NCBI GenBank assembly: GCA_030696695.1
Contig: JAUYRP010000034.1
Location: forward strand, 496,001 to 560,000
Reading direction: 5' to 3'
DNA: 64,000 bases
Source: Methylophilus sp.
Lineage (GTDB): Bacteria > Pseudomonadota > Gammaproteobacteria > Burkholderiales > Methylophilaceae
Part shown: positions 5,175 to 9,269 of the stretch, piece after piece
Position numbering within the stretch: the stretch's first letter is position 1
Layout of the letters: each line of letters opens with the position of its first letter
Notes under the pieces: generated by a model
The model's database searches: none
What the model saw: only the letters and a program-made list of their open reading frames with translations
Told to the model about the DNA's origin: nothing
Translations under genes and position numbers: made by a program

Positions 5175-5753
5175 TTAACTCACAAAATGTATCAGACGTT
5201 GCATTAAGGCAATTTGTTCGGTGGAGAATTCCAAAGGTTTACGCTTAAAGCCAGTTTTGGCAAATTGTTGCCAGCGCCCAATCACATAACAAGTCATCAA
5301 ACTAGCCAAAGCAGACGGGTCTTGCTTATTGTCACCTTGGGCAATCGCAATTTTGAGCGATTGTTTAATGCTGGCTTCAATACGGTCATGCAATTGGTTA
5401 ATGCGTAGTTGTAATGCGTCATCTTCATTCACCAATGCATCACCAATCAATACGCGTGTCATCCCTGGGTTCTTTTCAGCAAAACGCAGCAACATGCTGA
5501 CTATCAGTTGCACTTGTTTGGTACCGTCCATTTCATCACTGGTGATTTTATTAATCACGCCGAAAATAGAGTTTTCAATAAATTCAATCAAGCCCTCAAA
5601 CATTTGTGCCTTATTGGCAAAGTGGCGATACAACGCGGCTTCTGAAACCTCTAATCTTGCAGCAAGCGCAGCGGTCGTGATTTTTTCTCGTTTAGGTACT
5701 TCCAGCATTTGTGCGAGAGTTTCTAAAATTTGTTGTTTACGATCTGAAGCCAT
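5175..5753 (-). CDS. slmA: nucleoid occlusion factor SlmA (TetR family)
   Basis: SlmA binds specific chromosomal sites and disassembles FtsZ polymers so that the septum does not cut the nucleoid. The 192-residue protein has the family start KQQILETLAQMLE, the TetR helix-turn-helix about residues 20-62 (TTAALAARLEVSEAALYRHFANKAQM) and the typical C-terminal RWQQFAKTGFKRKP. E. coli SlmA has 198 residues. It follows the HAD nucleotidase gene with a 77-base gap on the same strand, as in other betaproteobacteria. Confidence 0.93.
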   Translation of the reverse strand: MASDRKQQILETLAQMLEVPKREKITTAALAARLEVSEAALYRHFANKAQMFEGLIEFIENSIFGVINKITSDEMDGTKQVQLIVSMLLRFAEKNPGMTRVLIGDALVNEDDALQLRINQLHDRIEASIKQSLKIAIAQGDNKQDPSALASLMTCYVIGRWQQFAKTGFKRKPLEFSTEQIALMQRLIHFVS

Positions 5754-5830
5754 AAGTATCCTTATATGTCTGTCGCACGGTGTAAGTGTATGCTTACTTA
5801 CTTGCTCGACGTGTTCATTATTTCTTTGAA

Positions 5831-6463
5831 TTATAGCCTAAGGTGAGTAAGTGCTAGCACCGAGTTGATTCTAAAATCGACAAAATTTGGTTTTTTTAAT
5901 TGACGAGTTACCCAAATAGTTTGCATGCCCAGACGTTTGGCGGTCATTAATGCAGGCAAATTATCCTCTAACATCACACAGTCGCTGGCATTCACATTTA
6001 ATGTGTTAAGCAACATTTGAAAGCCACGCATACTTGGTTTTGCATGAAATTGTGTGGATTCCACACTAAAAATCAGCTCAAAACAATCTTCAATGCGCAT
6101 GATTTCTAAGACACGTATGGCATACGCACGTGGTGCGTTAGTGAATACACACTTACGTCCTTTAAGTTGTTTTAGAACGTGGCGTAAGCGCTTTACTTGC
6201 AGCACCATATTGGGTAAATCCATAAAGGCATGGGTTTCCTGCAAAAAATGGTAGGCGTCTACACCATGATGTCGCATCAGGCCTTTTAATGTCGCACCGT
6301 AAATACGCCAATAATGCTGTCGTAATTGATGCGCTGCGGGTTCATCTATATTGAGTTCGGCCATGATGTATTGGGTCATCGCGCGATTCATCACAGGGAA
6401 AATATGAGCAGAGGCGTTGTGTAAGGTGTCGTCTAGATCAAAAATGTAGATTTTTTGCGTCAT
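5831..6463 (-). CDS. pyrimidine 5'-nucleotidase, HAD superfamily
   Basis: A 210-residue haloacid-dehalogenase-type phosphatase of the yeast SDT1 / pyrimidine 5'-nucleotidase group. Motif I is IFDLDDTLHN at the N-terminus (nucleophile Asp and acid/base Asp), motif II is the VFTNAP segment, the motif III lysine is in the HAKPSMRGF region, and motif IV is MLEDNLPAL. It probably dephosphorylates pyrimidine nucleotides, including unusual ones. It sits between argB and slmA on the minus strand. Confidence 0.88.
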   Translation of the reverse strand: MTQKIYIFDLDDTLHNASAHIFPVMNRAMTQYIMAELNIDEPAAHQLRQHYWRIYGATLKGLMRHHGVDAYHFLQETHAFMDLPNMVLQVKRLRHVLKQLKGRKCVFTNAPRAYAIRVLEIMRIEDCFELIFSVESTQFHAKPSMRGFQMLLNTLNVNASDCVMLEDNLPALMTAKRLGMQTIWVTRQLKKPNFVDFRINSVLALTHLRL

Positions 6464-6591
6464 CTGGATTTTTTAAGGTTTGGAGTATTTTAGATGCGCA
6501 TTCTCGTGAAGGCGTGAAGCGTGTGCAATATGCAATAGGATGCCAAGTTTCGAAGGGCGGATATCTATTTTAATCTTTTCACCTTGAACTG

Positions 6592-6613
6592 GACTCCCAC
6601 TTTCGCGGGAGTC
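6592..6613. terminator. hairpin between argB and the nucleotidase gene
   Basis: The arms GACTCCC and GGGAGTC, seven base pairs, enclose ACTTTCGC. There is no good T-tract on either side, so it may be a weak or Rho-assisted terminator or a dispersed palindrome rather than a classical intrinsic terminator. It lies in the 198-base gap downstream of argB. Confidence 0.4.
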
Positions 6614-6661
6614 GGGAGCACGCTTTAGGATTGATTGAGCAATTTAGCTTAGTTAGGCTAG

Positions 6662-7594
<933 letters not shown>

Positions 7595-9190
7595 TTACAG
7601 CGGTTTAACAAACACTTTCGATTTGCGTTGGAAATTGTAGAGCGCTTGCTTTTCTTGCGGTAAATGTTCAACAGGGAGTTCTACAAAGCCACGCTCCAGA
7701 AACCAGTGTTCAGTGCGCGTGGTTAGGCAGAACAATTGATTAAATCCCAATTTTTTTGCTTGCGCTTGGCAGTAATTAAATAATTTATCTCCCCGCCCGC
7801 CACCACGATATTCTGGATCAATCGCAAGACAAGCAAACTCTGCCATCTTGGCTTGTGGAAACGGGTAAAGTGCAGCACAGCCAATCGCTCTGTTGTCATG
7901 TTCCATCACGTAAAAATGGTTAATTTCCATCTCAATACGTTCGCGGCCACGCCTCACCAAAATACCGTCATTTTCTAATGGTTCGATAAGCTTAAGAATC
8001 CCGCCCACATCCTCTATGTTAGCTTGCCGCATAGTCTCAAGAGGTAACTCAGTGATCATGGTGCCAATACCACTGTGGGTAAACAGCTCTTGGATAATCG
8101 CGCCATCAATATGTCGTGAGATTAAATGTGTCCTTGCAACACCGCGTTCGCAAGCATGTACCGCAGCGGGTAGGTAAAAATTCACATCTTCCGAAAAGTG
8201 AATAGGCTCATCACTTTCTTGCACGTTTTTGAGTAAGTTCTTGGCTTTTTCTGCTGTCATTTCACGCAGCAATTCACCACGCAAATTATGCACACCTTCT
8301 GAGTCCATTAAAAAAATCAGTTTTTCCGCATCCAGCGCAATCGCAGTGCTCACGGCAACATCTTCCAAACTCAAGTTAAACGCTTCACCAGTGGGTGAGT
8401 AGCCCATCGGTGATAGCAATACCAATTCACCATCATCCAAACGCTTTTGAATGCCAATCGCATCCACTTTTCTCACTTCACCCGTATGCTGTAAATCAAC
8501 GCCATCCAACACACCCAGCGGTTTTGCGGTAACAAAGTTACCACTTGCAACACGAATATCTGCACCCGCCATAGGGGAATTGGCAATCCCCATCGAGAGT
8601 AATGCTTCAATTTCAACCCGTACCGCACCGTTGGCTTCTTTCACCGCTTCCATGGCAGCATCGTCGGTAATGCGCAAGCCCTCATGATAAGCTGGCGCAA
8701 GCTTATCGCGCTTCAAGCGTTGTTCAATTTGTGGACGTGCGCCATGCACCAGCACTAACCTAACCTCTAAGCTTGCCAGTAGATTTAAGTCGTGTGAAAG
8801 CGCAATAAATTGTTGTTCACTCACTACCTCGCCACCAAACGCAATCACAAAGGTTCTGCCACCAAATGCGTGAATGTAAGGGGCGGCAGAACGAAACCAG
8901 TGCACAAAGTCTTGCGTATTGTTGCTATTCAGTGTGTAAGGAGCAGCACTTACTTGATTATTTGTAGCTTTCTCGTGTGTTGCGGCATTCGTATTGTGCT
9001 CGCTAAAAAGTACAGCGGGTGTTGTCTTGAGTGCGGCTGCAATTTTGCGAATCAGCATTTCGGAAACGCCAAGTTCTCCGCGTTCAATGCGTGAAAGATT
9101 GCCTGCATCGGATTCAGTTAAGTGTGCCAACTGTTGTAATGTCAGCTTGTTTTGTTTGCGTAAGAGACGAATCTGATTGCCAATAGACAA
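7595..9190 (-). CDS. argA: N-acetylglutamate synthase with N-terminal XRE helix-turn-helix domain
   Basis: ArgA makes N-acetylglutamate from acetyl-CoA and glutamate, the first arginine step. The 531-residue protein has three parts in one frame. Residues 1-60 are a Cro/C1-type helix-turn-helix (IGNQIRLLRKQNKLTLQQLAHLTESDAG, LSRIERGE). A Ser/Asn-rich linker follows to about 95. Then come the amino-acid-kinase-like domain (FVIAFGGEVV, LVHGARPQIEQRL) and a C-terminal GNAT domain (FACLAIDPEYRGGGRGDKLF). The HTH is absent from ordinary ArgA. The start is inferred as TTG at 9190 with AAGG about 8 bases upstream; an in-frame ATG at 9307 would run inside rsmE and encode an AT-rich, non-conserved stretch. 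It could regulate its own operon. Confidence 0.9.
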   Translation of the reverse strand: MSIGNQIRLLRKQNKLTLQQLAHLTESDAGNLSRIERGELGVSEMLIRKIAAALKTTPAVLFSEHNTNAATHEKATNNQVSAAPYTLNSNNTQDFVHWFRSAAPYIHAFGGRTFVIAFGGEVVSEQQFIALSHDLNLLASLEVRLVLVHGARPQIEQRLKRDKLAPAYHEGLRITDDAAMEAVKEANGAVRVEIEALLSMGIANSPMAGADIRVASGNFVTAKPLGVLDGVDLQHTGEVRKVDAIGIQKRLDDGELVLLSPMGYSPTGEAFNLSLEDVAVSTAIALDAEKLIFLMDSEGVHNLRGELLREMTAEKAKNLLKNVQESDEPIHFSEDVNFYLPAAVHACERGVARTHLISRHIDGAIIQELFTHSGIGTMITELPLETMRQANIEDVGGILKLIEPLENDGILVRRGRERIEMEINHFYVMEHDNRAIGCAALYPFPQAKMAEFACLAIDPEYRGGGRGDKLFNYCQAQAKKLGFNQLFCLTTRTEHWFLERGFVELPVEHLPQEKQALYNFQRKSKVFVKPL

Positions 9191-9204
9191 GATAAACACC
9201 TTAT

Positions 9205-9269
9205 ATTTGTAATTAATACAAATTATTATATTTATATTATGTAATAAATACAAATAATTTATATTTGAA
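9205..9269. promoter_or_regulatory. palindromic sites at the argA start, possible operator
   Basis: A perfect inverted repeat lies at 9205-9223 with arms ATTTGTA and TACAAAT and a five-base spacer. A second, imperfect copy lies at 9249-9269 (TACAAAT, then ATTTGAA). The region is almost pure A+T and covers the gap between rsmE and argA, immediately before the chosen TTG start. Because argA itself carries a helix-turn-helix domain, autoregulation is a reasonable inference. Confidence 0.5.

Follow-up and report, generated by a model that had tools for sequence, protein, structure and literature searches.

A helix-turn-helix fused to N-acetylglutamate synthase across Methylophilaceae: a predicted enzyme and probable repressor of its own gene

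In a 64-kb stretch of Methylophilus sp. DNA (hereafter the window, 64,000 nucleotides in all), argA encodes a single chain in which a Cro/C1-type helix-turn-helix (HTH) domain precedes N-acetylglutamate synthase (ArgA), and this HTH-ArgA fusion is a trait that recurs across Methylophilaceae, streamlined genomes included. From the domains, the conserved residues and the sites upstream of the gene, we propose that HTH-ArgA is probably both an enzyme and a repressor of its own argA(-argB) promoter, with arginine as the probable co-repressor. A sequence-only reading of the window had raised the idea of a DNA-binding sensor, and the comparisons reported here support it as the best reading of the fusion. 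The features of the locus are as follows.

7595..9190, minus strand: argA with N-terminal HTH, encoding the 531-aa HTH-ArgA (open frame and relatives)
9011..9184, minus strand: Cro/C1-type HTH, residues 3-60, with recognition-helix region DAGNLSRIERG (Pfam, predicted model, Foldseek)
8921..9004, minus strand: variable linker, residues 63-90 (identity 0.168, dN/dS 0.234)
8066..8854, minus strand: amino-acid-kinase-like arginine-sensing domain, residues 113-375 (Pfam, arginine-site alignment)
7598..8038, minus strand: GNAT acetyltransferase domain, residues 385-531 (Pfam, NCBIfam, PDB match)
9190, minus strand: start codon TTG, with AAGGTG six bases ahead
9197..9202, minus strand: Shine-Dalgarno-like AAGGTG (direct reading of the sequence)
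9206..9222, no strand assigned: operator-like palindrome 2, TTTGTATTAATTACAAA, perfect (direct reading, site scoring)
9225..9230, minus strand: putative -10 TATAAT, 17 bp after TTGTAT (promoter pattern)
9238..9254, no strand assigned: operator-like palindrome 1, TTTGTATTTATTACATA, one mismatch, 32 bp from palindrome 2 and containing the putative -35
9248-9253, minus strand: putative -35 TTGTAT, inside palindrome 1
6662..7561, minus strand: argB (acetylglutamate kinase), the next gene after argA on the same strand

The argA gene runs from 9190 to 7595 on the minus strand as a single unbroken frame of 531 codons plus a stop. The sequence-only reading had placed a Cro/C1-type HTH ahead of ArgA in one frame, with no plausible internal start between the two parts. 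Both observations are confirmed for the window, where Pfam assigns the HTH to residues 3-60, ArgA models begin at residues 89 and 95, and the sole candidate codon, GTG at residue 96, is preceded by no Shine-Dalgarno-like sequence. Because the frame is intact across many independent genomes, we reject a sequencing or frameshift artefact. The start position in the window matches the chosen start in 50 of 59 non-redundant family proteins (the window's own included). This start is a TTG, and ATG was chosen for the other 58 of the 59 loci by a start-choosing script that favoured ATG; the TTG may lower translation of the window argA.

When used as a query against its own genome, the protein returns two matches, HTH-ArgA itself and argB, which lies just downstream on the same strand and likely belongs to the same operon. 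Among 77 loci whose sequence extends more than 400 bp downstream, 56 have argB after argA on the same strand; the proposed switch would thus often govern both initial steps of the pathway. In the window, argA heads a minus-strand run whose remainder (5175-7561) consists of argB and then genes for what we take to be a HAD-type hydrolase and a TetR-type protein (SlmA-like).

Pfam recognizes HTH_31 (E 1e-8, 35.8 bits against a cut-off of 27) and HTH_3 (E 4e-7, 30.4 bits against a cut-off of 23) at residues 3-60, followed by AA_kinase at 113-358 and GNAT at 424-504. Two NCBIfam ArgA equivalog models, PRK05279 (694.9 bits, cut-off 344) and TIGR01890 (586.6 bits, cut-off 202.85), cover residues 89-531 and 95-531. 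By sequence, a DNA-binding-type domain and a complete enzyme are therefore together in one chain; the protein carries about 90 extra N-terminal residues with the HTH and does not have the two-domain layout that starts at the kinase-like domain. The HTH alone is predicted to form five helices (pLDDT 90.7). The closest solved structures found for this model by Foldseek include ClgR, C.AhdI, SinR with DNA and P22 c2 with DNA (TM about 0.9, E from 4e-4 to 1e-2), with ClgR and C.AhdI giving TMq values of 0.90-0.91 at an E of about 5e-4. HppE, an enzyme, is also among the solved structures that share this fold, and thus an HTH fold on an enzyme is no proof of regulation. AlphaFold predicted the kinase-like domain of the full-length protein poorly (mean pLDDT 60.3), and this model served for fold search only. 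Among regulator families the HTH best matches the model of a benzoate-catabolism regulator, NCBIfam PRK08154 (25.9 bits at E 4.9e-6, below the cut-off of 204), and no further copy of the argA HTH was detected in the window's genome at an E of 0.01.

A search for the same domain order in other ArgA proteins reveals that HTH plus ArgA recurs across Methylophilaceae. The window protein has a match in 179 of 187 family genomes, in at least one of which (G184) the match is argB only, and most of the family matches listed span residue 1-3 to the protein end. Loci with matches include Methylophilus, Methylotenera, Methylobacillus, Methylovorus and Candidatus Methylopumilus, the others being broadly labelled MAGs (one Sulfuritalea). 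None of the eight genomes without any match is more than 90% complete. Genomes of the streamlined genus g2 (about 1.3 Mb) keep the fusion, with ArgA proteins just 39-44% identical. Of 16 family genomes that were re-examined, nine carry an intact fusion (G001, G002, G003, G007, G009, G012, G018, G019 and G023) and two carry it on cut contigs (G015, G162). Runs of N lie inside the argA locus of G013 and G181, the locus of G056 has a frame break with TGA, that of G028 (47% complete) is in pieces, and G184 has argB and a weak HTH-like stretch with no argA. G006 gives a weak match only, and G048, G091, G140 and G153 are among a few more family genomes with truncated or fragmented matches.

For quantitative comparisons, 149 loci with a tblastn match were reduced to 126 full-length proteins and then to 59 at <90% identity (the window's included). 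The loci dropped from the 149 were 20 that start after residue 7 (argB-only or partial matches among them), 2 that stop short of residue 520, and one that failed the length, X or start filter. The intactness of the 126 is consequently a product of selection, and many genomes are present twice among them through overlapping locus searches. HTH alignment coverage is 0.999 among the 59 non-redundant proteins, and all members of a 45-sequence alignment match both HTH_31 and HTH_3 at an E of 0.001. A lack of HTH homologues in other ArgA proteins of the family, which the sequence-only reading had named as grounds for abandoning its idea, is thus not what we find.

Beyond the family, the first 197 residues used as a query match 387 of 399 genomes of the order. 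Among the matches listed (the best ~150), all that begin at residue 1-3 belong to Methylophilaceae and the remaining ones first align somewhere from residue 20 to the ArgA start; HTH-bearing G001 and G003 rank below these best ~150, and a divergent fusion at that depth could be missed. In the class (369 genomes, 300 with a match), none of the matches listed (again the best ~150) begins before residue 45 except the window's own. Five genomes in which the match seemingly reached into the linker or HTH, or in which a long frame was present (G402, G372, G557, G235 and G301), were considered as carriers of the fusion outside the family and rejected, as inspection by eye revealed other sequence or stops in their upstream frames. 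A Pfam scan of the upstream frames in G402, G301 and G235 detected no HTH.

Sequence comparison indicates purifying selection on the HTH. Across the 59 proteins, pairwise identity averages 0.577 in the HTH, 0.168 in the linker, 0.737 in the kinase-like domain and 0.655 in GNAT. The corresponding dN/dS values from 86 close pairs are 0.066, 0.234, 0.025 and 0.035, ratios that are rough because synonymous sites are near saturation (pS about 0.65). The most conserved stretch of the HTH is the recognition-helix region, in which L32, S33 and E36 are invariant in 59 of 59 proteins and R34, I35, R37 and G38 are each kept in 57 or 58.

The upstream palindrome named in the sequence-only reading proved real, being perfect at 9206-9222, and it is one of a pair. 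Palindrome 1 lies over the putative -35 element and palindrome 2 starts two bases past the putative -10, a geometry that suggests repression. The site pair has a family consensus of about TTTGTA-N5-TACAAA, present in two copies upstream of argA. The sites at 9206-9222 and 9238-9254 are the best two of five matches (at most 2 mismatches) in the 64-kb window, and five is no excess over the shuffle mean of 6.1; since the number of sites is at chance level, the weight rests on their position and on the relatives. Among 103 distinct argA upstream regions, the two sites of the best pair are separated by exactly 30 bp in 54 and by 29-33 bp in 75, counts that overstate independence because the regions are related sequences from which the consensus was itself drawn. 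The window's spacing is 32 bp, compared with the commonest value of 30 bp. Because the tblastn match served to anchor the upstream regions, a few of them, such as those of L082, L122 and the streamlined genomes, do not lie exactly at the start codon. A consensus-free measure of palindrome pairs, applied to 47 non-redundant regions, also peaks at 30 bp (z 9.4 relative to dinucleotide shuffles). Elsewhere in the range of spacings from 17 to 55, its z values of 1.3-7.4 indicate that argA regions are palindrome-rich in general.

The site pair is associated with the fused gene. A consensus pair score of at least 20 is reached by 52 of 103 family argA starts and by 0 of 52 argA starts without the HTH, although this unfused control is much GC-richer (0.52 versus 0.27). 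When the comparison is confined to AT-rich regions, the same score is reached by 52 of 97 family argA regions and, among the AT-rich starts of other frames (at least 120 aa) at these loci, by 1 of 189. A palindrome-only pair score separates the two sets at a threshold of at least 10 (39/97 versus 2/189) and at a threshold of at least 9 (78/97 versus 34/189). About half of the 103 regions fall short of a pair score of 20; sites in Methylophilus and the Methylobacillus branch are imperfect palindromes, and the pair is less regular in streamlined genomes. In four streamlined loci (L125-L127 and L129) the start reads ATGCAAA, and the right half of the palindrome, TGCAAA, overlaps the start codon.

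A promoter of the form TTG[CT][AT][AT]-17 bp-TATAAT (at least 5/6 matches in the -10) occurs in 56 of the 103 regions compared with 1.6% of shuffles. A consensus promoter scanner did not list the proposed argA promoter, TTGTAT-17-TATAAT, because TTGTAT fits TTGACA at only 3/6 positions. The possibility that the sites form the operator of rsmE or another neighbour is not favoured, as pairs at a score of 19 occur both without detected upstream rsmE (9/17) and with it (30/42). A wider regulon was also sought with a strict tandem pattern in 31 genomes, of which 19 belong to the family; it matched in two, and both matches are at argA. The strict single site TTGTA-N5-TACAA is found three times in the window's genome, no more often than a reversed control; one copy is at argA, and the other two fall within long frames, one permease-like and one of 1004 aa. 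A looser site pattern gives 58 matches in the same genome compared with 10 for the reversed control.

Variation in the recognition helix offers a hint of co-evolution between helix residue 30 and site sequence. In 15 Methylophilus-type regions (L012, L014-L017, L019-L021, L023, L024, L026, L031, L058, L077 and L113), residue 30 is changed from Gly to Ser, and the sites differ in sequence, such as TTTGCAATAA and TTTTGCAAAA. Direct-repeat spacing nevertheless peaks at 30 bp both in the Ser-30 regions (n=15, z 6.9) and in the Gly-30 regions (n=84, z 10.1), with four of the 103 regions outside both groups. The Ser-30 regions constitute one clade, and the change therefore counts as a single event that yields no statistic.

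The arginine site of the enzyme is also retained. Residues 368-377 read ELFTHSGIGT, which fits the arginine-site motif E-(L/I)-(F/M)-(T/S)-x-x-G-x-G-T given in the available part of a review of the N-acetylglutamate synthase (NAGS) family (PMC4490483). The same text names K201 and E270 as arginine-site residues of Neisseria gonorrhoeae ArgA, and describes a large quaternary change of that protein driven by arginine (PMC4490483). By alignment, the counterparts of K201 and E270 are K290 and E368, which are present without exception in 45 aligned sequences. The kept motif, together with the arginine-driven change in the N. gonorrhoeae protein, means that a route for coupling ligand to DNA binding exists. 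Thus, the sensor idea gains evidence from three sides: tandem sites at the promoter, an intact arginine motif, and the lack of any over-cut-off match to the arginine repressor ArgR described below.

In the mechanism that we propose, the ArgA part would make N-acetylglutamate, and arginine bound at the kinase-like ring would inhibit the enzyme, as in classical ArgA. A linker of about 30 residues would join each HTH just ahead of the ArgA N-terminal helix, and the oligomer, presumably a hexamer, would pair its HTHs near two-fold axes, ready for palindromes. These pairs would bind the two argA palindromes, most often 30 bp apart, and binding over the -35 and the start region would turn the argA(-argB) promoter off. 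Arginine, the presumed signal, could shift the placement of the HTH pairs, and its reshaping of the hexamer most likely favours the DNA-bound state. A more detailed version, nearly but not quite as probable as its opposite, is that the hexamer is itself an arginine-operated repressor in which arginine-driven expansion of the ring changes the spacing of three HTH pairs, letting a single hexamer clamp both palindromes about 30 bp apart. If that version is true, feedback inhibition and transcriptional repression would be two outputs of one allosteric event.

Other explanations accommodate parts of these data. The HTH might bind the operators in response to N-acetylglutamate, glutamate or acetyl-CoA bound by the GNAT site, or its signal might just be the amount of enzyme, which would be plain negative autoregulation. 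Sequence data do not fix the ligand, and constitutive autorepression would fit the same architecture; however, the arginine-site motif retains its key K and E, and it is arginine that drives the large quaternary change of the N. gonorrhoeae protein (PMC4490483, available part), such that we consider a different signal rather unlikely. It is somewhat less probable again that another regulator binds the palindromes while the ArgA HTH serves as a scaffold or protein-interaction module. In favour of this reading, the enzyme HppE carries a Cro/C1-like fold. On the other side, conservation within the HTH is concentrated in its recognition-helix region, high-scoring tandem sites accompany the fused gene and none of the 52 unfused argA starts (the GC-richer control), and strict sites are not spread genome-wide, two of the three lying inside long frames.

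The coupling could also fail if internal initiation or cleavage of the linker yielded two separate proteins in the cell. In 37 of the 59 non-redundant loci the linker contains or ends with an in-frame start codon, which in some of them follows AGGA or a similar four-base match. These codons shift in place among loci, however, and 22 of the 59 loci have none; the only one in the window, GTG 96, has no Shine-Dalgarno-like sequence and sits inside the conserved ArgA N-terminal helix. We therefore regard separate proteins as improbable. In ten loci (L097, L099-L102, L104, L108, L109, L111 and L117), several of them named Methylobacillus or Methylovorus, CAGGA precedes an in-frame GTG where the ArgA helix begins, and these could produce a short form without the HTH. 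That the HTH is a neutral relic of gene fusion is scarcely credible: the linker does vary freely, but the HTH has a dN/dS of 0.066 and is kept in streamlined genomes of about 1.3 Mb.

The reading of HTH-ArgA as enzyme and repressor invites comparison with ArgR, a hexameric arginine sensor with N-terminal DNA-binding domains that acts at tandem operator boxes. The two belong to unrelated families, and the ArgR domain PF01316 is absent from the Pfam matches of HTH-ArgA. Scans of 187 family genomes, the window's included, and of 150 genomes sampled from the order gave no ArgR over cut-off; weak matches below it numbered two in the family and one in the order, and 9 of 14 control genomes scored positive. 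A comparative study, in the part available, reports that gammaproteobacterial groups conserve ArgR and that the other classes compared lack it (PMC5343134). With no ArgR over cut-off in the 150 order genomes, HTH-ArgA would offer, for one family, a concrete answer to how arginine is sensed at the gene level. If the hexamer version holds, the protein would be a natural functional replacement of ArgR. Methylophilus has been used in methanol-based amino-acid production, where such a switch, if real, would be a practical control point.

The sequence-only reading considered a link of this type undescribed. The general kind, an enzyme joined to a DNA-binding domain, is known: PutA, NadR and BirA are each one polypeptide that serves as a pathway enzyme and as a DNA-binding regulator of its pathway. 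They differ from HTH-ArgA in enzyme, pathway and DNA-binding fold, and to our knowledge none of the three acts in arginine synthesis. For HTH-ArgA itself the claim stands within the literature covered, with no report among the titles and abstract openings listed from full-text sources, a scope that excludes most subscription journals. The NAGS family review gives several unusual NAGS types, and the words 'helix-turn-helix', 'DNA' and 'fusion' are absent from its available part (PMC4490483).

Classical ArgA, represented by the N. gonorrhoeae enzyme (2r8v/3d2p), shares with HTH-ArgA the kinase-like and GNAT domains and the arginine-binding motif. It is the top PDB match by sequence (E 2.5e-90) and also by fold, the latter from the full-length model with its poorly predicted kinase-like domain. 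No HTH precedes the kinase-like N-terminal helix at which the solved protein begins, in agreement with the earlier statement that ordinary ArgA starts directly with this fold, whereas HTH-ArgA has the additional domain; we know of no DNA binding by the N. gonorrhoeae enzyme. If our reading is true, feedback inhibition and repression would be joined by the HTH within a single molecule through one ligand site.

The closest parallel in architecture is BzdR, which, according to the available part of its description, combines an HTH-XRE domain with a shikimate-kinase fold whose enzyme activity is lost (PMC3602430). The same text reports a laboratory chimera of an HTH and shikimate kinase, Q1, that is both an enzyme and a shikimate-responsive repressor in vitro (PMC3602430). 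Like HTH-ArgA, BzdR and Q1 have an N-terminal HTH-XRE, a linker and an enzyme-fold domain, and they act at several operator regions of a promoter, comparable to the argA site pair (PMC3602430, same part). BzdR is inactive and controls benzoate-degradation genes, and Q1 is man-made (PMC3602430, same part); HTH-ArgA, by contrast, has an enzyme part with the scores of a complete ArgA, and its proposed sites lie on its own gene. The gain of an HTH by an enzyme has been put forward as a step by which BzdR-type regulators arose, and engineering has reproduced it (PMC3602430, same part). HTH-ArgA, if correctly read from its sequence, would be a natural and apparently still catalytic enzyme with an acquired HTH and, should the hexamer version hold, a living example of the enzyme-to-regulator intermediate built in the laboratory.
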